In this document: positions 32,507 to 49,199 of the stretch, one piece after another
Numbering within the stretch: position 1 is the first letter of the stretch
How the letters are laid out: every line of letters begins with the position of its first letter
Origin: Candidatus Nitrosocosmicus agrestis
Lineage (GTDB): Archaea; Thermoproteota; Nitrososphaeria; Nitrososphaerales; Nitrososphaeraceae
DNA length: 64,000 nucleotides
Reading direction: 5' to 3'
NCBI RefSeq assembly: GCF_008389435.1
Contig: NZ_VUYS01000004.1
Location: forward strand, 186,001 to 250,000
Notes under the pieces: generated by a model
Databases searched by the model: none
What the model was told of the DNA's origin: nothing
Seen by the model: only the letters and a program-made list of their open reading frames with translations
Made by a program: the position numbers and the translations under genes

Positions 32507-34213
32507 TTATTCACTGTCAGAGTCATCACTGTCAGAGTCATCACTGTTAGGTGTGTCTACAACGACCTCTCCCACCATGGTTGGATGGTAAATGCAATAG
32601 TAAGGAAAGTCCCCAGCCTGGTTAAATGTGAGGCTATAATACTGACTCGGGATTATCGCATCAGAATCAAACAGAGTACCTTCATCAGGATCCCCATCTG
32701 CTCCTGAGGTCACGGTATGCGAAATAGTATCACCATTATACCAAGTTACTGTTTGACCCACGTTAATTTCAATAGGATTAGGAGAATAGGAGTCATCTCC
32801 ATCAATTCCCAGTATTACTGCAGGTACTGATTGATTACGCAAAGTCTCTTCTTCAGCAGATACGACCGGCGGACTACCAGGTTTTATGCTATCAGAAATA
32901 GGCAATATTCTAAATAGTGATCCAGTATAACTTAAAACATAAAGATACCCATCAGGTCCAACTTCAATGTCAGTTATCCCGCCAAAACCTTGGGCAAAAA
33001 TTAATGGCTGGTTTTCCTTAGGATCGTCGACTTCATTATCTTGCAAAAGATCTATATTTCCAGGATATGTACTATTTATAAAAATTGCATCTCTTTCTTC
33101 GTTAAGTGTAAATCGATATAGTAGTCCGTTATTAATATCACCTACAAACATATTGTTTGCATATTCATCACCTAATCTGTGGGAATTTAGAAATTTTAAT
33201 GCGGTTATACCTATAGTGGTATCCCATACAAATTTCGGGTCAGCATATTGACTACTACCGAAAACTACGAGATCATTTTCGGTAGTTCCATGTTCTAGTA
33301 TGTCATCATCTACAAAACCCTGAATTTGATACCAGCCACTATTGAAACCAGGGAAAACCAAATTTATCTCATCACCAGCTGCAGGACCATTTTCAGTATC
33401 CCACAGATTACCCGTTAGAGGGTCAAAATCCATTCCAAAACTGTTACGGATGCCCATTGCATAGTAAATGTTCAATGGCAATCCTTTTCCGAAAATAGGG
33501 TTAGCAGGATCTACTATACCCCCATCTTGGGTTATACGCAGCACTCCACCTAAACCATTGGGAGGAGGTCCTGTAAGAATATTCTGAGCCTGTGTTCGAT
33601 GTCCACCCACTTCTCCTACCATATAATAAACATTATTATCAGGACCGATTCTTATCTTGCCTCCATTATGTTCTCCTCTACCATTAACAGGAACAGCAGT
33701 CAAATCCAATAATAACACAGGATTAATTAATCTGCCGTCAACAAACTCATAGCGATAAAGTCTGTTACCTAATGGCTCAACAAAGCTAGTAACATCACTG
33801 CCATCAACACCATTACCTGATTCAGTGTAAGAGAGAAATACATAGATTTTCCCATCGGGCTGTTTCGCTACAGCAATACCTAAAAGACCTCGTTCAATTC
33901 CATTGGCAACAGGTACATCCAGAACCGGATTCGGATTCACAATCCCGTTTGTTACTCGCATTACTTTTCCTGTAGTTTTTTCGGTAACTAGAATATCATT
34001 CGGACCAAGAAATGCCATACTGGTTGGAAATTCCAAATCATCCGCTATTTTTTCCACAGTTAGAGTGTCATCATTTACGGTTGGACCATTTGGAGATAAA
34101 GGTGCCTTCGCATATGCACCATAAGATAATTGAATAGAAGAAGTAATGGATGAAATGGTAATCAAGAACATGGCAAAAAAGGAAATCAACAGTTTCTGTC
34201 TATTACTAACCAT
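32507..34213 (-). CDS. Exported PQQ-type sugar dehydrogenase fused to a cupredoxin domain
   Basis: 568 residues. Signal peptide of about 32 residues (ending SYGAYA). Residues about 50-440 are a six-bladed glucose/sorbosone dehydrogenase propeller: DLEFPTSMAFLGPNDILVTE, ERGLLGIAV, the active-site GEHNGGKIRIGPD, ENGPAAGDEINLV and FGGITDIEVGPDGYLYVLSY. Residues about 455-552 are a plastocyanin-like domain with a complete type-1 copper site: H499, C540, H543, M546 (CIYHPTM). A short DSDSDDSDSE tail ends the chain. The layout suggests that electrons from sugar oxidation pass from PQQ to the attached copper centre. Extracytoplasmic. Monocistronic. Confidence 0.9.
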   Translation of the reverse strand: MVSNRQKLLISFFAMFLITISSITSSIQLSYGAYAKAPLSPNGPTVNDDTLTVEKIADDLEFPTSMAFLGPNDILVTEKTTGKVMRVTNGIVNPNPVLDVPVANGIERGLLGIAVAKQPDGKIYVFLSYTESGNGVDGSDVTSFVEPLGNRLYRYEFVDGRLINPVLLLDLTAVPVNGRGEHNGGKIRIGPDNNVYYMVGEVGGHRTQAQNILTGPPPNGLGGVLRITQDGGIVDPANPIFGKGLPLNIYYAMGIRNSFGMDFDPLTGNLWDTENGPAAGDEINLVFPGFNSGWYQIQGFVDDDILEHGTTENDLVVFGSSQYADPKFVWDTTIGITALKFLNSHRLGDEYANNMFVGDINNGLLYRFTLNEERDAIFINSTYPGNIDLLQDNEVDDPKENQPLIFAQGFGGITDIEVGPDGYLYVLSYTGSLFRILPISDSIKPGSPPVVSAEEETLRNQSVPAVILGIDGDDSYSPNPIEINVGQTVTWYNGDTISHTVTSGADGDPDEGTLFDSDAIIPSQYYSLTFNQAGDFPYYCIYHPTMVGEVVVDTPNSDDSDSDDSDSE

Positions 34214-34681: not shown

Positions 34682-35668
34682 TTAATTAACAAAATAAACC
34701 TCATTTTTGCCAGTTACAGTAAGTCCAGGATGTGGTCCCCCTCCGATTACATAGATTTTGTCTTCGATATTAGCAATACCAAGTCCATGTCTAGCTGTAG
34801 GCATAGGTGTTTCCTCGGTCCAAACATTATTGGTTGAATTATACACCTCATTCCTGTTAAAAGTACCTTGATTCTGTTCGCCACCCAATACATAGATCAG
34901 GCCATTAACAGTAGTTGCAGCAATTCCACTTCTCTTAGAGGGCATGGGTGAAAGATCAGAATCCCATTTATCCAAAATTGGGTTGTATCTTTCCACGACA
35001 TCCACATTCACAAGGGAAGTAGCGATCCTTCCTCCGATTACATAAATATTTCCATCTACTACTCCCGATGCTGCGTGGTGTCTTGCCGTAGGCATTGGTG
35101 AAAGACTTGTCCACGTTCCATTGATAGTATTATAAGCTTCTACAGTAGAAAGAGACTGATCATGCTTATCACCACCAATTACATACAGAACATCACCTAC
35201 AAAAGACGATACTGGAGAACCTCTTGCTGTAGGCATTGATGGGCCGATCGTCCAGTTATTAATTTTAGGATCATATATGAATAACAGATTACTGGGATTC
35301 CAATCTCCCGTATATCCACCGATAACATAAATTTTTCCATCATAGACAGATGAGCTTGTATGATGAAGTGGAACAGGCAAGGGACTTGAATTTGCATTCC
35401 AACGATTGTTGGTCGTATTATATACCTCAACTGTACTAGTTATTCTTCCATCATTTGTGAACCCACCCATTACATATACTAAATCATCAAGACTTGCCGC
35501 CGTTACTTCAGTACGTGGAGTTGGTAACGATTTTCCTTCTAACCAAGTTCCATATCCACTTGATTCTTGAGAAAAAGCAGCAATATAATCATCTGATTTC
35601 AAAATAGCAACCAAAAAAATAAAAACCAAAATAACAAGGGATAGCAGTTTAAAATTTTTATTTATCAT
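34682..35668 (-). CDS. Exported Kelch-repeat beta-propeller protein 1
   Basis: 328 residues. Signal peptide or anchor of about 32 residues (ending AAFSQ). Six Kelch blades can be counted by their double-Gly strands: VYVMGGF, IYVIGGY, LYVIGGD, IYVIGGR, IYVLGGE and IYVIGGG, each preceded by a P-M/L-P-T-x-R-x turn. So it is a complete six-bladed propeller outside the membrane. Such proteins bind sugars or partners; some are oxidases or epimerases, but no Cu-oxidase Cys-Tyr pair or epimerase motif is recognised. Close relative of the protein at 40124-41128. Confidence 0.88.
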   Translation of the reverse strand: MINKNFKLLSLVILVFIFLVAILKSDDYIAAFSQESSGYGTWLEGKSLPTPRTEVTAASLDDLVYVMGGFTNDGRITSTVEVYNTTNNRWNANSSPLPVPLHHTSSSVYDGKIYVIGGYTGDWNPSNLLFIYDPKINNWTIGPSMPTARGSPVSSFVGDVLYVIGGDKHDQSLSTVEAYNTINGTWTSLSPMPTARHHAASGVVDGNIYVIGGRIATSLVNVDVVERYNPILDKWDSDLSPMPSKRSGIAATTVNGLIYVLGGEQNQGTFNRNEVYNSTNNVWTEETPMPTARHGLGIANIEDKIYVIGGGPHPGLTVTGKNEVYFVN

Positions 35669-37492: not shown

Positions 37493-38164
37493 ATGTATAG
37501 TAAGTTGGTTTTTGTATCTTTGTTATTGATATTCGTAACTGTATTTTCAAGTTTAATTATTCGACCCATGCAATCCGAAGCGACTACAGAGAATCAATCT
37601 TTTTTTGATGCTGAAAACATAGATTCCAAAATTCTATCAAATGAATCTGTATCATTGGAGCCACCAGTTGCTAACACAACATCATTAGAGTCCCCAGTTG
37701 CTAACACAACATCATTAGAGTCCCCAGTTGCTAACACAACATCATTAGAGTCCCCAGTTGCTAACACAACATCATTAGAGTCCCCAGTTGCTAACACAAC
37801 ATCATTGGAGCCACCAGTTGCTAACCTCACTAACCACTTTGCTGCTCAAGTTTTTATTCATAAGAATTTTGTAGGGAATAACACAATAATTACTCAAAAC
37901 ACTCCATTGATCAATGGTCAATTTCAAGATTCGATAAGTAGTTTAATAATTACAATTGATGGAAATCAGAGTGCAGGATACATGGTAGAAGTTTGCGAAC
38001 ATAAAAGCTATGCAGGAAATTGTATGATACTAGGTGCAGGTAAACATAACATTCAAACTCTAGGATGGCTTAATGATCAAATTTCATCCTTAAGAGTTTT
38101 ATCCCCAGAAACTTTAGAACTCAAGAACATCAAACCGGGAATAATAACTAACGGATCTAATTAA
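37493..38164 (+). CDS. Exported beta/gamma-crystallin-domain protein with Thr/Ser repeats
   Basis: 223 residues. Signal peptide or anchor at 1-31. Residues about 54-113 are six tandem decapeptides (SLESPVANTT), rich in Ser, Thr and N-x-T sequons: a likely glycosylated stalk. Residues about 118-205 form a beta/gamma-crystallin domain: AAQVFIHKNFVGNN, FQDSISSL, YMVEVCEHKSYAGNC and LNDQISSLRVL. Both Ca2+-binding [N/D][N/D]xx[S/T]S-type sites (QDSISS, NDQISS) are recognisable, the second in full, and two Cys (CEHKSYAGNC) probably pair. Likely a Ca-binding surface protein. Confidence 0.82.
   Translation: MYSKLVFVSLLLIFVTVFSSLIIRPMQSEATTENQSFFDAENIDSKILSNESVSLEPPVANTTSLESPVANTTSLESPVANTTSLESPVANTTSLESPVANTTSLEPPVANLTNHFAAQVFIHKNFVGNNTIITQNTPLINGQFQDSISSLIITIDGNQSAGYMVEVCEHKSYAGNCMILGAGKHNIQTLGWLNDQISSLRVLSPETLELKNIKPGIITNGSN
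37652..37831 (+). repeat. 30-bp tandem repeat, six copies
   Basis: Unit TCATTAGAGTCCCCAGTTGC plus CTAACACAAC-type remainder, 30 bp each. The four inner copies are the same; the first and last carry GAGCCACCA (Pro instead of Ser). This pattern points to recent expansion between older outer copies. Confidence 0.92.
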
Positions 38165-38261: not shown

Positions 38262-39287
38262 ATGGGATCAGAGTACAGTGCGATTGTTTCAATATCCGTT
38301 TTATTTGTGTTTACAATCATTTTTGCATTACCAGAGGATACTAACGCCGTCAACAATTCCACTTGGGAATTTGGAAAAGAAATGCCAACAAATAGAACTG
38401 AAATTACTGCAGACGTCGTAAATGATAAGATATTTGTCATCGGTGGAGCGGACTATAGAAATGGTGGTCAACTAAATTTAGTCGAAATATATGATCCCCA
38501 AAACAATAATTGGACCAAGGGAAATCCTCTACCATATTCACTTGACCATGCACCATCCGTTGTTTATAAAAACAAAATATATGTGATTGGAGGTTTTCAA
38601 GAGGATAAAATTACCACAGATAAGGTATTGATTTATGATTCTGTAACAAATCAATGGACTGAGGGAAACCCTCTGCCCGAACCAAGAGCTGCCTCAGTAG
38701 CAGAAGTTGTAAATGGCACTATATATATCATATCAGGTCTAAATTTGGATCACGACCCCGTAAGGACTAATTTTGCATATAATATAGAAAATGACACATG
38801 GATGACTAAAGCTCCAATGCCAGAACATAATGGTCCAAAACACCATGCCGCATCTGCCACGGTTGACGGCAAAATTTATGTTATCGGTGGAAGACTGTTT
38901 GGCAATGGAGTACCTAATGAAATAAACGATGCTCTCACAAACCTAGACGATAATATGCAATACGATCCAAAGACAGATAAATGGACAGAGATGGATCCAA
39001 TGCCCATCAGAAGAAGCGGCTTTTCAGCCGAGTCATTAGACGGGAAGATATATGTATTTGGCGGACAGATGGCAGACGGAGCTAGCAAAAACATAGAGAG
39101 ATACGATCCAATTACTAATCAATGGTCCATCGAGCCTGATATGCAAGCAGACAGATCGGGCTTGGCAGTTGCAGCATATAATGATAAAATATATGTATTT
39201 GGCGGACAGCATGAAGGACTTCAGGCTATGAATATAAACGAGGTATTAACTCCGGGAAACAGTAGTCACCAGAACAAAATACCATAA
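38262..39287 (+). CDS. Exported Kelch-repeat beta-propeller protein 2
   Basis: 341 residues with a signal peptide of about 27 residues (ending EDTNAV). Six blades: IFVIGGA, IYVIGGF, IYIISGL (degenerate, Gly-Gly replaced by Ser-Gly), IYVIGGR, IYVFGGQ and IYVFGGQ. It differs from the other two Kelch proteins of the window by a longer loop in blade 4 (FGNGVPNEINDALTNLDDN) and the degenerate third blade. Extracytoplasmic; ligand unknown. It starts 97 bp after the crystallin-like gene on the same strand. Confidence 0.87.
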   Translation: MGSEYSAIVSISVLFVFTIIFALPEDTNAVNNSTWEFGKEMPTNRTEITADVVNDKIFVIGGADYRNGGQLNLVEIYDPQNNNWTKGNPLPYSLDHAPSVVYKNKIYVIGGFQEDKITTDKVLIYDSVTNQWTEGNPLPEPRAASVAEVVNGTIYIISGLNLDHDPVRTNFAYNIENDTWMTKAPMPEHNGPKHHAASATVDGKIYVIGGRLFGNGVPNEINDALTNLDDNMQYDPKTDKWTEMDPMPIRRSGFSAESLDGKIYVFGGQMADGASKNIERYDPITNQWSIEPDMQADRSGLAVAAYNDKIYVFGGQHEGLQAMNINEVLTPGNSSHQNKIP

Positions 39288-40123: not shown

Positions 40124-41128
40124 TTATTGACTAGTGCGATTTAGAGGATGATATATTTCAGTTATATTTGATGTAAAGAAACCTCTTTGAGGTCCGCCTC
40201 CTATCGCATAAATCTTACCATCAAAAGACGCTGCACCAAATCCATGTCTAGCATTCATCATGGGTAATTCCTTGGTCCACGTATCAGTTTGAGGATCATA
40301 GCGTTCGTTATCATTGAAGGCACCCTGATTCTGTTCTCCTCCCAAAACATAAATAAATCCATCTAATGATGTAGCAGCATTTCCACTCCTCTTTGATGGC
40401 ATGGGTGAGAGATCAGTAATCCAAGTATTAGAGACAGGATCGTATTTTTCAATCAAGTCAACATTGTTAAGTTCTTCTCCAATTCTACCGCCGATTACGT
40501 ATATATTTCCATCAACAACTGCAGATGCCGCATGATGACGGGATGTAGGCATAGAAGCCTTTGTAGTCCATTGATTGGTATTTGGATCATATGCCTCGGT
40601 TGTGTTTAAGGCTCTATCATATCCCTCTCCACCATCACCACCCATAACATATAAAGTTCCATTAACAAATTCTGCGTTAGGGTATCCTCGTGGGGTAGGC
40701 ATAGGATTGCCTTGGGTCCACTCATTCGTAACTGGATCATAAATGAAAAGTCTATCACTTGCAGTCCAATCTCCTGTGTAACCACCTGCAACATAGACTT
40801 TGCCATCAAAAGCTGCCGCTGCTACATGATGCAGAGGTAACGGTAATTGTGATATATCTTCAGACCAAGTATCCATTGTAGCATTATACAATTCAACCAT
40901 TCCTACTCCTTCTCCTTCTTGATCATAGCCTCCTATTACATATATGCCGTCACCAATTTGGGCTGCTGTAGCTTCAGTTGTTAGGCGAGGCATATCTGCT
41001 CCTCGGGTCCAAAAAACTCCAGTGTCCGGTTGTGAATATGAAAATTGGAAATAATTTATCATGCTTAATGTTGATATCATTATTATACAAAGGAAGGTCG
41101 TCAAGTGTTTTTTTGTGAAAAAATTCAT
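40124..41128 (-). CDS. Exported Kelch-repeat beta-propeller protein 3
   Basis: 334 residues with a signal peptide of about 32 residues (ending FSYSQ). Six blades: IYVIGGY, VYVAGGY, LYVMGGD, IYVIGGR, IYVLGGE, IYAIGGG. The order and many loop words (GYTGDW, SRHHAASAVVDGNIYVIGGR, PMPSKRSG) match Kelch protein 1 at 34682-35668, so the two are recent paralogues; protein 2 is more distant. Located outside the membrane; ligand unknown. Confidence 0.88.
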   Translation of the reverse strand: MNFFTKKHLTTFLCIIMISTLSMINYFQFSYSQPDTGVFWTRGADMPRLTTEATAAQIGDGIYVIGGYDQEGEGVGMVELYNATMDTWSEDISQLPLPLHHVAAAAFDGKVYVAGGYTGDWTASDRLFIYDPVTNEWTQGNPMPTPRGYPNAEFVNGTLYVMGGDGGEGYDRALNTTEAYDPNTNQWTTKASMPTSRHHAASAVVDGNIYVIGGRIGEELNNVDLIEKYDPVSNTWITDLSPMPSKRSGNAATSLDGFIYVLGGEQNQGAFNDNERYDPQTDTWTKELPMMNARHGFGAASFDGKIYAIGGGPQRGFFTSNITEIYHPLNRTSQ

Positions 41129-41934: not shown

Positions 41935-43593
41935 ATGTCTCTGCTAGCCAGAATGACATTGATTTATGAAAGCAAATACTTTACAATCATTTTGATAATT
42001 TCTATATCAACATTATTTCATCTCTATAATGTTACTGGATTCCCCACTATCCACATAGATGAAGGGACTTATATGTACAGAGCAATGCATTTTTTGACCT
42101 TGGGAAACGTTGGATGGAATGTTTCATTTTATGATCATCCGTATTTTGGTCCGGTTTTGCTTGGAATTCTTTTAAAAGTTGTTAATTACCCTCTTCTTGT
42201 ATTATCAGATACACAATTTCAAGGATTAGCCAACAATCCCTACTTAATTCCTAGACTCATGATGGGCCTATTTGCAATAATAGATACATTTTTGGTGTAT
42301 GCAATTTCAAAAAGATTGTACGACCGCAACGTAGCAATTTTATCGGCGGTATTATTTTCTGTAATGCCTTTTACCTGGGCACTACGACGAATTTATTTGG
42401 AATCGCTACTGTTGCCTTTTTTTCTTGGATCTGTTTTGCTTGTCTTGTATTCAAATTATCAAAATCAGTCGAACAGAAAAAACACATGGTTATTAATATC
42501 AGTTTCAGGAATACTTTTCGGGTTATCAGTTTTTACAAAAGCACCGATATTTCTTATGATTCCTCTATTGATATATCTTATCTACAAACAGAACAAGGAG
42601 TTGACGTATATCATAATATTCATGATTCCGGAAATTGTAATCTCAACAATTTGGCCACTAGATGCATTAATTAAGGGAGAATTTGAACAATGGACGCTAG
42701 GTGTAAGTTCTCAAATGATGAGACACGACGCCGCCATGCTCGACGCCATCTATAACATTCTTGAAATCGACCCAACCATTTTTTCAATTGGCATTGCAGG
42801 GATCTTATTTGCCATTATTAAAAGAGATTATTTTATTTTACTAGGAATAATACCATTCTTAGCTTTTTTTTCAATTTTAATAGATTATATAAATTGGTTC
42901 TACATGATACCTATTTTTGGATTTGTTTGTATATCCTCCAGTGTACTAATAATAAGAATCATTTCCTCCTTTTCGAAATTTAAATTATTTACTGTTTCAA
43001 TTATTGGACTTGTTATCACCTTTGGCTTTCTCTCAACCTTACTTTTGATTTTGACTGATGTAGGGTCATTCCAAGATCAAACGATTTCTTATATTAATGC
43101 AATTCTATCTAAAGGAGATATTAATTTTGACTTAGGATTAGAAGATCCCTTCAAACAAAAGAATGCCGAACCGATATCTGACTTGGGAAATTCTCAAAGA
43201 GAAAGAAATAATTTGAGGGATAGCAATATCAACAAATTAAAAACAACGATGATTGCTAGTCCAATATATTCGTGGATTTACAAATACATATATTCTTACA
43301 ATGAAACTTCTTATAGCTATACAGAAGACAAAGAATTCAGAAATGACACCAAGTTAATTTTAGTTTTGGATAGATACTTCAGAGATTTTTTAGCTAATAA
43401 TGTAGAATCAAAAAACAGTACATGGAATCAAGATATTGCATCTGCTGATAGAATTTACGAAGTAATGAAGAGATTGAATTCATCAAAATATTTTGTAGGA
43501 AATGGGAGAGAGTTTAACTTTAATCAATACCCATATAGCAGTATGAGATTTAATTTGGGTGGGAGTCCAATAGAGGTAAGGACAAATTTTTAA
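41935..43593 (+). CDS. GT39-like membrane glycosyltransferase (dolichyl-P-mannose type)
   Basis: 552 residues with about ten membrane helices in the N-terminal 400 residues. The first external loop carries the catalytic Asp-Glu of PMT/GT39 enzymes at D42-E43 (FPTIHIDEGTYMYRA), followed by DHPYFGPVLLGILLK. The C-terminal 150 residues are an external soluble domain. It should move a sugar from a dolichyl-phosphate donor to proteins or lipids outside the membrane. AGGAGG lies 14 bp before the ATG. A paralogue fused to a sugar dehydrogenase is at 44665, and the donor synthase at 47970. Confidence 0.85.
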   Translation: MSLLARMTLIYESKYFTIILIISISTLFHLYNVTGFPTIHIDEGTYMYRAMHFLTLGNVGWNVSFYDHPYFGPVLLGILLKVVNYPLLVLSDTQFQGLANNPYLIPRLMMGLFAIIDTFLVYAISKRLYDRNVAILSAVLFSVMPFTWALRRIYLESLLLPFFLGSVLLVLYSNYQNQSNRKNTWLLISVSGILFGLSVFTKAPIFLMIPLLIYLIYKQNKELTYIIIFMIPEIVISTIWPLDALIKGEFEQWTLGVSSQMMRHDAAMLDAIYNILEIDPTIFSIGIAGILFAIIKRDYFILLGIIPFLAFFSILIDYINWFYMIPIFGFVCISSSVLIIRIISSFSKFKLFTVSIIGLVITFGFLSTLLLILTDVGSFQDQTISYINAILSKGDINFDLGLEDPFKQKNAEPISDLGNSQRERNNLRDSNINKLKTTMIASPIYSWIYKYIYSYNETSYSYTEDKEFRNDTKLILVLDRYFRDFLANNVESKNSTWNQDIASADRIYEVMKRLNSSKYFVGNGREFNFNQYPYSSMRFNLGGSPIEVRTNF

Positions 43594-43663: not shown

Positions 43664-44440
43664 TTATTGACACTTTTCATATCCTAATTTATAAAGATCG
43701 TTACAAACAAACGTTTTGGTAATATTAAATAATAAATCATCATTCTTTATTTCGGTTGCTGATTCTGATTCTGGCATCTTCAAACTAGATTTAGGATTTA
43801 AACGGAGATTGACCTCAGATTTGTCTTTAGGTTGTTGATTTCCATCATAAAGTCCGTAATATATAGCTGATTCACCATCCGTAAAATCGATTTTAAGCAA
43901 TATGAAACTAACGTCTCTGTTAGGAACATCCAAGATAAAAGTTTCATTTAAAGGTATATTGTTATAGAGTCTTGCTTGCTCTAGTAAATTGTCAAAGTTA
44001 TCAAAATCTTGGAGTTGTCCTACGACCAAATCACTATTAGTAAAGTTCTCAAAAGCAGAAGATTCTTTGTATCTAGGTTCTAGCTTTATGAGTTGATACC
44101 AATTTACCACTTGAAATGGAAATAGTTCGTCATTTAGATCACGGAAAATATCCACAGTATCATTGAAAATTAATGCAGACAGATATAGAGTTCCAGTGTC
44201 CTTTGGTTCCACGTGTATGGAGACGTTTGAAGGTACAGTCTCATAGATTAATTTCGATCCCGCTACTGTTTCGTTGCCAAAAATTGTCGGACTTGGTTCA
44301 AAAGCCATACTGATGGACTTTGATACAGCGCCACCATCTATAATAATTACAGCAAAAAAAGCAAAAAAGCATGACAAAAAGACCACTTTTATTTTACCGC
44401 TAACAAACAAAAAATTCAACATGCTTTGGTATCGAGACAT
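43664..44440 (-). CDS. Membrane-anchored extracytoplasmic protein, unrecognised
   Basis: 258 residues. One hydrophobic helix at about 17-35 (KVVFLSCFFAFFAVIIIDGG) serves as signal or anchor. The outer part is acidic with several N-x-T/S sequons and predicted beta strands, ending NDLYKLGYEKCQ with Cys residues that could pair. It lies on the opposite strand between the two GT39 genes; a role in the same surface pathway is possible but not shown. Confidence 0.6.
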   Translation of the reverse strand: MSRYQSMLNFLFVSGKIKVVFLSCFFAFFAVIIIDGGAVSKSISMAFEPSPTIFGNETVAGSKLIYETVPSNVSIHVEPKDTGTLYLSALIFNDTVDIFRDLNDELFPFQVVNWYQLIKLEPRYKESSAFENFTNSDLVVGQLQDFDNFDNLLEQARLYNNIPLNETFILDVPNRDVSFILLKIDFTDGESAIYYGLYDGNQQPKDKSEVNLRLNPKSSLKMPESESATEIKNDDLLFNITKTFVCNDLYKLGYEKCQ

Positions 44441-44664: not shown

Positions 44665-47634
44665 TTGATAAAGTGTACAGAAAAACAATGCAATAAAACC
44701 AAGTATATAATAATCATCCTGATTCCTGTAGTATTATCTGCATTCACACATCTATGGAATCCGACTGGATTTCCATCCATATACATAGATGAAGATCACT
44801 ATATGAGAAGGGCACTTCAAGTATTAGAAGGCCAGGGACCTCAAGAATCAATATTAGTATATGATCATCCTTATGACCACCCATATTTTGGTCAGATTTT
44901 TTTAGCCTCGTTACTAAAAATAGCAGATTACAGATATCATGCGGATCAAAATGCTGAAAGTCCTCAATCAATTGAACAGCTATATCTTACACCTCGAATA
45001 ATAATGGGACTATTAGCAGTTGTGGATACCTTATTAGTTTACAAGATAGGAGAAATATGGAAAGGAAAAAAAGTAGGTTTTGTGTCGGCCATACTTTTTG
45101 GAGTCATGCCGTTAACATGGATGTTAAAGATGACACTATTAGACAATTTACTAATGCCATTTTTCCTCTCTTCAGTTTTGTTAGCTTTGTTTGTAGGAAA
45201 AAGGTTTAAGAAAGATTCGTCTGTGACGGCTTTGATCTTTTTGTCCGGCATAACTCTTGGACTCGCAATTTTTACCAAGATACCAGTAGTAACTTTCATT
45301 CCCTTAGTAGGATACATAATCTATAAAGAAACCAAAAGTTTTAGGAAAATAGGTTTATGGTTGATTCCAGTTATATTAATTCCTTTAATTTGGCCAGGTT
45401 ATATTATTTATAGTGGTAATTTAGAGAATGGGCTAAATGGAATCTTATATCAGATTGAGAGAGGCGAAAGGGACTTTGCAGATACTTTGAATTTTATTGT
45501 TTTTGCAGATCCTGTACTTGTAATTCTTGGTATTGTTGGAGGACTAACTCTCACATTTGTCAAAAGGGATCTGCTTTTTGTATTATGGACTATTCCCTAT
45601 TTCTTGTTTATTTGGCAAGTTGGTGGAATAGTAAAATACTTTCACTTTATTGAGTTGTTACCCATATTAGCAATTTCAGGAGGGTTTATAATAGTAACAA
45701 TTAGTAATAAAATATCTGCGATGGGTAAAAAAAGTGCAAGAAAGATTAAGATACATAATTTTTTATCAATAATTCTGATTGCTGGAATAGGTATTTTCGG
45801 ATTAACTTGCACTTTAATGGTAATTGGTAATAATACAAACGAAACCTTTTTTGAGTTATCGGCATTTATCTCAAATTATGTGGTTTCAAACACAGACCTT
45901 AATATGAAAACAACACTTATGGGTCAGCACTGGATTAGAAGCTTTTCATGGATTCCTATGTATATACATGACAAGACAAATTTCGTAAAGGACGTATTCC
46001 CTGAACGTTATTTGAGAGAACCGTTAAAGACTGACGATGTCCTAATGGTAGTGGATAATCAACTAAAGCACGACGTACTAGATTATTCGGTTCAGGGTGA
46101 GCACCTCGATAAAATAAGAAAAATATACCATAATTCCGACAGAGTGGGTTTATTTGTTGACAATCCAATTAAAAATATTGACATAAATCAATATCCATTT
46201 ACCAATATGAAAGAGGTACGGGAATTAGGACTGATTGAAGTTAGATCAAATCATGTAAATGAGGACAATATAGTATACGCTCAAACATCTAACGGGACGA
46301 TGGATTCCGAGAATCTCAATTTGACTGTTCCTCAGATCCCTATGCCAACGGTTGCTGATCCTAATTTGAAAGTTGAGCTAGTAGCCAGTGGACTCAAGTA
46401 TCCTACAACAATGGCATTTGTCGGAAAAGATGACATTCTAGTCCTAGAAAAAAATAATGGCACTATAATGAGAATAATAAACGGGACTTTATTGGATAAG
46501 CCAGTCATAGACTTTAACGTTGCAAACAAGATAGAAAGAGGTCTGCTAGGTATTGCAGTAGCGAATCAGACATTGAATAACTCTACAGGCGAGAAAACAT
46601 ATGTTTACGTCTTCTATACTCAAGCTCTAAAAGATGGAAACGATGTTTGTTCTGGAGCTACAGTTTGTGATGAAAAAACAAATCCTTTGGGAAATAGAGT
46701 TTATAGACTTGAGTGGACAGGAAGCGAACTAATAAACCCTAATCTCATCTTGGATCTTCCAGTAGGTCCAGGCGCTGATCATAACGGCGGAGTGATAAAA
46801 GTTGGTCCTGATGGAAACATCTATGTCCTCGTTGGAGATGGCGATAGTTGTTGGGAAGATGAATTTTGTACTGGTACTTTTGAAGATAGTACTGTAAATG
46901 CAGAATCATCCAATGTTCCTACGGGTCATCCACCCGATGGAAGAGGGGGTATACTAAGAATAAATCCATTTGGGGAACCAATATTAGGAGGAGAAAATAA
47001 AACAACTGGGGTATTAGCGGATCATAGCCCTCTAAACAAGTATTTTGCTTACGGAGTTAGAAACGGATTTGGATTAGCATTTGATCCGATTTCCAATAAA
47101 CTGTGGGACAGTGAAAACGGTCCTGGTTATGGTGACGAACTAAACTTGGTAGAACCAGGGTTCAATAGTGGATGGTTAAAAGTGCAGGGATGGTGGCCTG
47201 TAGAAAATGCACAGCCTTTACCCCCAGAGAGAGGATATTTTGGAGATAAGATCGTGACAATACCAGATAATTTAGAAACCTTTGCGGATAAAGGACATTA
47301 CAGTAGTCCAGAGTTTACATGGAACATGTCCGTTGGAGTAACAGCACTTGAGTTCCTCAAGAACGATACATTAGGGACTCAATACCAAAATGATTTGTTT
47401 GTAGCGGACTATAACAATAACTACCTGTATGATTTCAACCTGATAGACGACAGGACAAAGTTAGATTTAGAAGGAGATCTAGTAGACAAAGTTGCAAATA
47501 ATAACGCTGAATTGGATTCTGTAGTATTTGGTCAAGGATTTGGAGTTGCTACAGATATAAAGGAGGGTCCAGATGGTTATCTGTATGTGTTGTCTCACTT
47601 GTATGGTAATCTCTATAGAATCGTCCCAAAATAA
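44665..47634 (+). CDS. Fusion: GT39-like glycosyltransferase + PQQ-type sugar dehydrogenase
   Basis: 989 residues, TTG start with AGGTGA upstream. Residues 1-530 are a GT39 enzyme parallel to the 41935 gene: catalytic D42-E43 (FPSIYIDEDHYMRRA), about ten membrane helices, and an end IEVRSNH that matches the paralogue's C-terminus IEVRTNF. A linker with VYAQTSNGT follows, then residues about 560-989 form a complete glucose/sorbosone dehydrogenase propeller: LKYPTTMAFVGKDDILVLE, IERGLLGIAV, GADHNGGVIKVGPDG, SENGPGYGDELNLV and GVATDIKEGPDGYLYVLSH. The dehydrogenase would be fixed to the outer face of the membrane. An unusual combination. Confidence 0.9.
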   Translation: MIKCTEKQCNKTKYIIIILIPVVLSAFTHLWNPTGFPSIYIDEDHYMRRALQVLEGQGPQESILVYDHPYDHPYFGQIFLASLLKIADYRYHADQNAESPQSIEQLYLTPRIIMGLLAVVDTLLVYKIGEIWKGKKVGFVSAILFGVMPLTWMLKMTLLDNLLMPFFLSSVLLALFVGKRFKKDSSVTALIFLSGITLGLAIFTKIPVVTFIPLVGYIIYKETKSFRKIGLWLIPVILIPLIWPGYIIYSGNLENGLNGILYQIERGERDFADTLNFIVFADPVLVILGIVGGLTLTFVKRDLLFVLWTIPYFLFIWQVGGIVKYFHFIELLPILAISGGFIIVTISNKISAMGKKSARKIKIHNFLSIILIAGIGIFGLTCTLMVIGNNTNETFFELSAFISNYVVSNTDLNMKTTLMGQHWIRSFSWIPMYIHDKTNFVKDVFPERYLREPLKTDDVLMVVDNQLKHDVLDYSVQGEHLDKIRKIYHNSDRVGLFVDNPIKNIDINQYPFTNMKEVRELGLIEVRSNHVNEDNIVYAQTSNGTMDSENLNLTVPQIPMPTVADPNLKVELVASGLKYPTTMAFVGKDDILVLEKNNGTIMRIINGTLLDKPVIDFNVANKIERGLLGIAVANQTLNNSTGEKTYVYVFYTQALKDGNDVCSGATVCDEKTNPLGNRVYRLEWTGSELINPNLILDLPVGPGADHNGGVIKVGPDGNIYVLVGDGDSCWEDEFCTGTFEDSTVNAESSNVPTGHPPDGRGGILRINPFGEPILGGENKTTGVLADHSPLNKYFAYGVRNGFGLAFDPISNKLWDSENGPGYGDELNLVEPGFNSGWLKVQGWWPVENAQPLPPERGYFGDKIVTIPDNLETFADKGHYSSPEFTWNMSVGVTALEFLKNDTLGTQYQNDLFVADYNNNYLYDFNLIDDRTKLDLEGDLVDKVANNNAELDSVVFGQGFGVATDIKEGPDGYLYVLSHLYGNLYRIVPK

Positions 47635-47969: not shown

Positions 47970-49199
47970 GTGACAATGCTTAATGTGAATGATACTCTGC
48001 AAGAGGTCAAAGATGATCAAAAATTTGTTTCTATTATTATCCCTACTTTCAATGAATCCTTGAATATAAGAGAGCTTTTAAACCAAATTCAATTTAATAT
48101 TCCTGCTAAAACCAATGTTGAAATCATAATTGTAGACGATAACTCTCCAGATGGCACAGGACTTATTGTGGAGAAATATATCGAAGAGAACTCAAAGGCA
48201 CCTAAACAGAAATTAATCTCAAAGAACGTTTTGATTAGAGTAATTCATAGGAAGGAAAAAGCTGGGTTAATAGCTGCTATAGTCAATGGTATAGGCCTTT
48301 GCAAAGGTAAAAACGTTCTAATAATGGATGCGGATTTTTCTCATCCCCCAGAAGTAATAAACAAAATGATCAGTGAATTGAAAAAAGCACCAAATTGTAT
48401 CATTATTGGTTCTCGCTATGTAGATGGTGGAGCGATTGATGGGATGTCATTTAAGAGATTTTTGTTAAGTCAAGGAGCTAACTGGATTGCGAGGCACGGT
48501 TTATCTCTTAAAAACGTTTACGACCCCATGTCAGGATTTTTTGCGTTTCCGAAACATGTATTGCAAGATGTAGAGTTTAATACAAATGGATTTAAAATTT
48601 TGCTGGAGATTTTGATTAAAAAGAATAATAATATTTGTGTTAAGGAAATTCCTTATACATTCAGAGATAGAAAACATGGTCAAAGCAAGTTGGATTTTTC
48701 AACAATTGTTGACTATCTGAAAGCAGTTTGGAAGCTTTATAGATATGGTAGAAAATCAAAGAGACAAAATACTCAATCAGAAAGCAGAAAATCGGTCAAG
48801 TTTATTTCAAAAGCTGCTAGATTCTATACTGTAGGAGCTAGCGGGTTTGTCCTCAATTATATAATATCTATACTATTTTCAAATGGAATTCTTGGTAATC
48901 TGGAATATCTACAAGCAACGGCAGTAGGAATTGCAGTATCCGTTACCACTAACTTCTTGCTAAACAAATTCTGGACTTTTGAGGACAAGAATAGAGATCT
49001 GATCAGATCTATTAAGCAGTACGGAATGTTTGTTGGATGTAGTTCACTGGGAATACTCATACAATTCTTGTCCATATATTTCCTAAGAGAATCAGGAATG
49101 TCATATGATATTTCATTATTACTAGGGGTGACAATTGCATCGGTAAGCAACTTTTTGTTCAACAAGAAATTAACCTTTAAGGAAAATATATGGGAATAA
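47970..49199 (+). CDS. Dolichyl-phosphate mannose synthase (GT2) fused to GtrA
   Basis: 409 residues, GTG start (an ATG two codons later is possible). Residues about 20-255 are a GT2 domain of the DPM1 type: SIIIPTFNESLNIRELL, VDDNSPDGTG, the metal site DADFSHPPEVI, GSRYVDGG, DPMSGFFAF and RKHGQSKLD. Residues about 278-405 are a GtrA domain with four membrane helices (FYTVGASGFVLNYIISILF to SNFLFNKKLTF). It transfers mannose or glucose from a nucleotide sugar to dolichyl phosphate, and the GtrA part may flip or position the lipid. Probable donor supplier for both GT39 proteins upstream. Confidence 0.92.
   Translation: MTMLNVNDTLQEVKDDQKFVSIIIPTFNESLNIRELLNQIQFNIPAKTNVEIIIVDDNSPDGTGLIVEKYIEENSKAPKQKLISKNVLIRVIHRKEKAGLIAAIVNGIGLCKGKNVLIMDADFSHPPEVINKMISELKKAPNCIIIGSRYVDGGAIDGMSFKRFLLSQGANWIARHGLSLKNVYDPMSGFFAFPKHVLQDVEFNTNGFKILLEILIKKNNNICVKEIPYTFRDRKHGQSKLDFSTIVDYLKAVWKLYRYGRKSKRQNTQSESRKSVKFISKAARFYTVGASGFVLNYIISILFSNGILGNLEYLQATAVGIAVSVTTNFLLNKFWTFEDKNRDLIRSIKQYGMFVGCSSLGILIQFLSIYFLRESGMSYDISLLLGVTIASVSNFLFNKKLTFKENIWE

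Follow-up and report, generated by a model that had tools for sequence, protein, structure and literature searches.

A membrane glycosyltransferase joined in one frame to a GSDH-type propeller in Candidatus Nitrosocosmicus, and its possible place in surface-glycan assembly

A single open reading frame of Candidatus Nitrosocosmicus agrestis, 989 codons long and opening with TTG, encodes a membrane glycosyltransferase of the GT-C/PMT type that runs directly into a GSDH propeller. It lies in a 64,000-nucleotide stretch (the window) of a genome, G000, of 3.2 Mb. The protein is a new combination of known domain families, and it arose once, in Nitrosocosmicus. Related genes hint at a part for it in building the outer sugar coat of these cells. 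The explanation that best accounts for the whole, and which we hold with moderate confidence, is that it acts as an outer-face, membrane-tethered enzyme of glycan assembly and modification, fed by a neighboring dolichol-phosphate-sugar (DPM) synthase.

Profile searches bear out the organization—transferase joined to propeller in one long frame—that an initial annotation had read from the letters (Table 1). GSDH (PF07995) is matched by residues 577–983 with an E-value of 2.4e-30 (106.4 bits; cut-off 25), and the closest solved structures, 2ism, 2g8s, 3a9g and 1c9u, all match the propeller. The transferase half exceeds the cut-offs of PMT (residues 71–226, 28.3 bits against 22.7) and PMT_2 (residues 111–244, 31.1 bits against 26.1), modest scores from families that do not separate the CAZy groups GT39 (PMT) and GT83 (ArnT-like), so ‘GT-C enzyme of PMT/PMT_2 type’ is the safe name for it. 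Of the earlier description, ‘complete GT39’, the PMT-type transferase stands, while the choice of GT39 over GT83 is finer than Pfam allows. The acid pair that had been picked out as catalytic, D42-E43, is in place, and the motif IDE recurs in every fused orthologue that covers this region.

Table 1. Coordinates of the fused gene, its parts and its neighbors. Positions are those of the window unless a locus is named.
Feature	Position	Strand	Basis
Fused gene, 989 aa: GT-C/PMT-type glycosyltransferase + GSDH propeller	44665..47634	+	ORF, Pfam, orthologues
GT half, residues 1-530	44665..46254	+	Pfam PMT/PMT_2, hydropathy, border from paralogue's end
D42-E43, presumed catalytic acid pair, first outer loop (YIDEDH)	44788..44793	+	IDE conserved in fused orthologues
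Linker, residues 531-565	46255..46359	+	Remnant signal-peptide end + N/S/T-rich stretch
GSDH-type propeller, residues 566-989	46360..47631	+	Pfam GSDH, PDB relatives
H706 = catalytic His144 of soluble glucose dehydrogenase, kept	46780..46782	+	Alignment
R799-N800 = Arg228-Asn229, kept	47059..47064	+	Alignment
N917 at PQQ-binding Lys377 place, lost	47413..47415	+	Alignment
V961, T963 at PQQ-binding Arg406, Arg408 places, lost	47545..47553	+	Alignment
GT2 + GtrA protein, dolichol-phosphate-sugar synthase type	47970..49199	+	Pfam Glycos_transf_2, GtrA_DPMS_TM; synteny
Unfused GT39-type paralogue	41935..43593	+	Pfam, synteny
Secreted protein, 258 aa, between paralogue and fusion	43664..44440	-	Synteny
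G006 frameshifted fusion and partial duplicate	L047:6764-9548 and L047:16480-18138	opposite strands	

The border between the halves is as sharp as had been claimed: the GT half stops at residue 530 (IEVRSNH) just where the unfused paralogue stops (IEVRTNF). In the 35 residues past this border, V/F/Y-A-Q/L is followed in fused orthologues by an N/S/T-rich stretch that leads into the start of GSDH. Here the linker contains VYAQTSNGT, the Y at residue 538, and A-Q/L sits at the matching place in every fused orthologue; overall the linker sequence is weakly conserved, yet it is N/S/T-rich in all of them. Many signal peptides of unfused GSDH genes of the family end in FAQ, NAQ or DAQ, and from this likeness the linker is best read as what is left of a former signal peptide, its end (VYAQ), plus the mature N-terminus that followed it. 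The proposal that the dehydrogenase was once a separate, exported protein fits these alignments well. By hydropathy, no hydrophobic stretch is left in the linker, and cleavage there by signal peptidase is thought unlikely for that reason. The gene would have originated when a GT gene lost its stop codon and became continuous with the gene of an exported GSDH, whose signal peptide was stripped of its hydrophobic part.

A sequencing join at about 46240–46350 had been named as an observation that could undo the fusion, and it is rejected: the same fusion recurs in independent assemblies, a closed chromosome among them. One-frame versions occur in the Candidatus Nitrosocosmicus genomes G001, G004, G005, G007, G008 and G011; that of G004, a complete, single-contig genome, encodes 998 aa. 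The matching copy in G002 is interrupted by the contig end, and the copy in G012 has one in-frame TGA, located in the GT half only. G006, a complete genome, has a frameshifted fusion and, about 7 kb off on the other strand, a partial duplicate made up of the last GT membrane segments and an intact GSDH. Thus a membrane-anchored propeller has survived the breakage of the fusion, and the halves are separable. Five Nitrosocosmicus genomes (G003, G009, G010, G013, G014) lack the fusion. The search for this two-domain architecture that the initial annotation had recommended found it within the genus and nowhere else among 70 genomes of the family or 398 drawn from the phylum; the sole long GT frame found elsewhere in that search (G080:C118) has a beta-helix attached, not GSDH. 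The other refuting observation that had been named, relatives that always keep the two parts as separate genes, is false for Nitrosocosmicus; some other genera do have separate DPM, GT39 and GSDH genes in a row, from different GT39 and GSDH subfamilies.

Maximum-likelihood trees group the GT halves of the fused proteins in one clade with a support of 100, and the fused GSDH halves likewise, which indicates a single fusion event, old within the genus. Both halves have since been maintained by selection: in two close pairs, G005–G011 and G007–G001, dN/dS is 0.14–0.19 for the GT half and 0.08–0.12 for the GSDH half. Conservation is about 86% in the GSDH half versus 68% in the membrane part of the transferase. 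A genome of another genus (G029:C99, locus L021; g9) carries a frameshifted remnant of a fused-type GSDH, 76–77% identical and without GT, which we leave as gene transfer or contamination.

Hydropathy reveals a multi-helix membrane part that extends to about residue 390, with nothing strongly hydrophobic beyond; residues 391–530 of the GT half form a C-terminal region that is probably extracytoplasmic. Twelve of the 13 N-glycosylation sequons fall past residue 388, and none occurs in residues 11–388. From the established topology of the GT-C class, both this C-terminal region and the propeller are expected on the outer face, and the earlier placement of the propeller directly beside the transferase is probably right. 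An AlphaFold model from a shallow alignment of nine sequences reached a mean pLDDT of 35.6, too low to use, so it is from these sequence features that we infer the orientation of the domains.

Syntenic orthologous loci with enough flanking DNA share an arrangement: GT39-type paralogue, opposite-strand secreted protein (252–258 aa; no Pfam match for the one in the window), then fusion. The GT2-GtrA gene lies 3′ of the fusion or, in G007 and G001, between paralogue and fusion. Its product likely supplies the donor for the GT half. There is a precedent for such a step in Haloarcula, where AepG, a DPM-synthase-like GT2, makes dolichol-phosphate-glucuronate for an acidic EPS (PMC9943897). More secreted proteins of the window were noticed by eye: three with kelch-like repeats, near one another at 34682-35668 (-), 38262-39287 (+) and 40124-41128 (-), and one at 37493-38164 (+) in which a tandem repeat, ESPVANTTSL, precedes a beta/gamma-crystallin-like stretch.

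The propeller had been called ‘PQQ-type’, a label that its residues do little to sustain. When ten fused propellers were aligned to 3a9g, 2ism and 3das, the catalytic His and the Arg-Asn pair proved to be retained in all ten, and so did the replacements at the PQQ-carboxylate sites: N for Lys377, V or I for Arg406 (which we take to be a PQQ-carboxylate-binding residue) and T for Arg408, each in 10/10 rows. In the soluble enzyme, PQQ contacts Lys377 and Arg408, and His144 is the catalytic residue (PMC6881789). Almost every other GSDH examined in the family (e.g. L004-L008, L020-L036) likewise lacks equivalents of Arg406 and Arg408, and a canonical copy in the same genome, L001, has lysines in their places. 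The fused propeller scores 84.9 bits against NCBIfam TIGR03606, below the cut-off of 434.55. Nothing in this genome exceeds the cut-offs for PqqE (best match 69.7 bits; 381 needed) or PqqC (23 bits; 240 needed). Gain of pqqC has been reported in mesophilic Thaumarchaeota (PMC10640624), and E. coli takes up PQQ from the environment (PMC6881789); import may occur here too. Judged by its residues, dependence of the propeller on PQQ is doubtful.

GT39-type and GSDH genes also keep company without being fused. A GSDH gene occurs within 4 kb of 13 of the 57 unfused GT39 loci, where 1.2 would be expected (an excess of about 10-fold), and on the same strand in 12 of the 13. A Poisson value for the proximity is inflated, since the count includes related loci as well as L047, which is a duplicated fragment of the fusion itself; by lineage, the independent unfused links number about four, besides the fusion. 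Genera g11 and g6 of the same family carry genes for a GT2 of the DPM-synthase type, a GT39 and a GSDH one after another on a single strand, 69–176 bases separating the last two. In both trees these GT39s and GSDHs form clades separate from the fused halves. They are not the nearest kin of those halves, then, and the pairing must have arisen at least twice; descent of the fusion from such a row is unsupported for the same reason. The pairing looks functional.

A third kind of module, the right-handed beta-helix, enters into similar combinations, several of them on single contigs of draft genomes. It is fused to GT39 in G080:C118 (L055:3294-5978), to a different PMT_2-like protein, itself just below the PMT_2 cut-off, in G080:C228 (L114:848-3700), to GSDH in G089:C392 (L107:514-3099), and to both LamG and GSDH in G036:C169 (L109:978-5264). 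NCBIfam's AlgG mannuronan 5-epimerase matches the helices of L055 (3e-12) and L107 (8e-13), in both cases far below its curated cut-off. Beta-helix genes adjoin GT39 genes at L079 and L115 and occur near the DPM/GT39/GSDH rows at L049, L061 and L096, and in G019 (L098) a gene of an alginate-lyase family lies between GSDH and GT39. These fusions and neighbors place GSDH in a surface-polysaccharide setting. Other GSDH combinations turn up in G000 itself: LamG + GSDH and NHL repeats + GSDH (L064:4149-6581 and L065:5740-7761), and, in the window at 32507-34213 (-), a GSDH with a C-terminal cupredoxin domain, possibly a built-in electron acceptor.

Our preferred explanation runs as follows. The GT half, in the membrane, would take a sugar from a lipid-phosphate donor made by the adjacent DPM-synthase-like protein and pass it to an outer-face acceptor. 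The propeller, held by its short linker at that same face, would modify or otherwise handle the growing glycan, or sugars at its free reducing ends. It would be one among several extracytoplasmic modules for surface polysaccharide that can be exchanged for one another. Putative actions of the propeller include oxidation at a free reducing end, reaction at another carbon, or a role that is not redox at all.

The main rival, possible in our judgment if rather unlikely, reduces the GT half to an anchor or exporter, its transferase activity incidental or fading. The surface dehydrogenase would oxidize free sugars and pass electrons to copper proteins or to quinones of the respiratory chain. The better conservation of the GSDH half accords with this, as do the GT half broken or cut to membrane segments beside an intact GSDH in G006, and the stop codon confined to the GT half in G012; so too do the cupredoxin domain on another GSDH of the window and the energy role proposed for the expanded GSDHs (PMC6657660). 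Against it stand the purifying selection on the GT half, the acid pair it has kept and the DPM synthase near which it remains; and where GT39 and GSDH are paired as separate genes, anchoring is impossible. The transferase might instead have been fused to its own client, and glycosylate the propeller or the S/T/N-rich linker. PMT enzymes O-mannosylate proteins, N, S and T abound in the linkers of all orthologues, and GT39 genes adjoin unfused GSDH genes as well; the poor conservation of the linker sequence, and the majority of the genome's GSDHs that have no GT39 alongside, speak against it, and we consider it improbable.

The mechanism that the initial annotation had put forward, in which a PQQ enzyme oxidizes the newly transferred sugar or its acceptor at the site of transfer, is more doubtful still. 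As this mechanism would have it, the propeller retains its catalytic His and Arg-Asn, and the two domains probably share one face; the PQQ-carboxylate residues and the PQQ biosynthesis enzymes discussed above count against it, and so does its chemistry. Known aldose enzymes of the GSDH family oxidize free C1, and since the new glycosidic bond ties up C1 of the sugar just transferred, its oxidation there is unlikely. That the whole is an artefact of assembly or annotation, or a random fusion of no function, has almost nothing to recommend it beyond the broken or stop-containing copies in two genomes: conserved orthologues across numerous independent assemblies, together with a closed genome, refute the artefact, and purifying selection on both halves argues against a lack of function.

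The expansion of GSDHs in Nitrosocosmicus is already known (PMC6657660), and has been taken to hint at heterotrophic or auxiliary energy metabolism (PMC6657660, PMC10432482). An alternative is offered by the fusion, by the recurrence of GSDH beside glycan genes and by the loss of PQQ-binding residues: at least part of the family may act on the cell's own surface glycans. The near-universal lack of Arg406 and Arg408 equivalents among the GSDHs examined renders the PQQ-dependent label of the expansion questionable. All this bears on how an envelope is constructed in archaea that have no canonical S-layer. In Nitrosocosmicus, GT genes are numerous, there is possibly a glycocalyx, and no canonical S-layer has been identified (PMC11559005). 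We would venture, tentatively, a broader idea. GT-C transferases, AlgG-like beta-helices and GSDHs may be mix-and-match outer-face modules, fused or co-encoded in pairs, that build the surface polysaccharide of these soil ammonia oxidizers, and the expanded GSDHs may be largely PQQ-independent processors of glycans rather than respirers of sugar.

In the open-licence papers searched we found no description of the GT39–GSDH architecture, in keeping with the earlier remark that no described system with this pairing was known to its author. Its parts are familiar. With PMT/ArnT-type GT-C enzymes (PF02366, PF13231; GT39/GT83) it has in common the acid pair in the first outer loop, the many membrane helices and a lipid-phosphate-sugar synthase gene nearby; it differs by the C-terminal propeller, and its sequence is too weak a match to choose between GT39 and GT83. 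With the soluble glucose and aldose sugar dehydrogenases (1c9u, 2g8s, 2ism, 3a9g) it shares the propeller family, the catalytic His, the Arg-Asn pair and a DE-N motif, but Lys377, Arg406 and Arg408 are replaced, and the domain is bound to a membrane glycosyltransferase rather than exported free. That the fold can work without PQQ is illustrated by the GSDH-like propeller of Hedgehog-interacting protein, a binding protein that is not known to be an oxidoreductase; it came up among the PDB relatives of one of this genome's canonical GSDHs. The fused propeller is a member of the expanded GSDH family of ammonia-oxidizing archaea (arCOG02796; PMC6657660) and has the arginine losses in common with it, although most members of that family have a signal peptide and no GT, and some have cupredoxin, LamG, NHL or beta-helix domains. 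Closest in organization are the DPM/GT39/GSDH rows of g11 and g6, where the same three functions stand side by side; there, however, they are separate genes, and the GT39s and GSDHs are of other clades, which makes the rows convergent with the fusion and not its direct ancestor.
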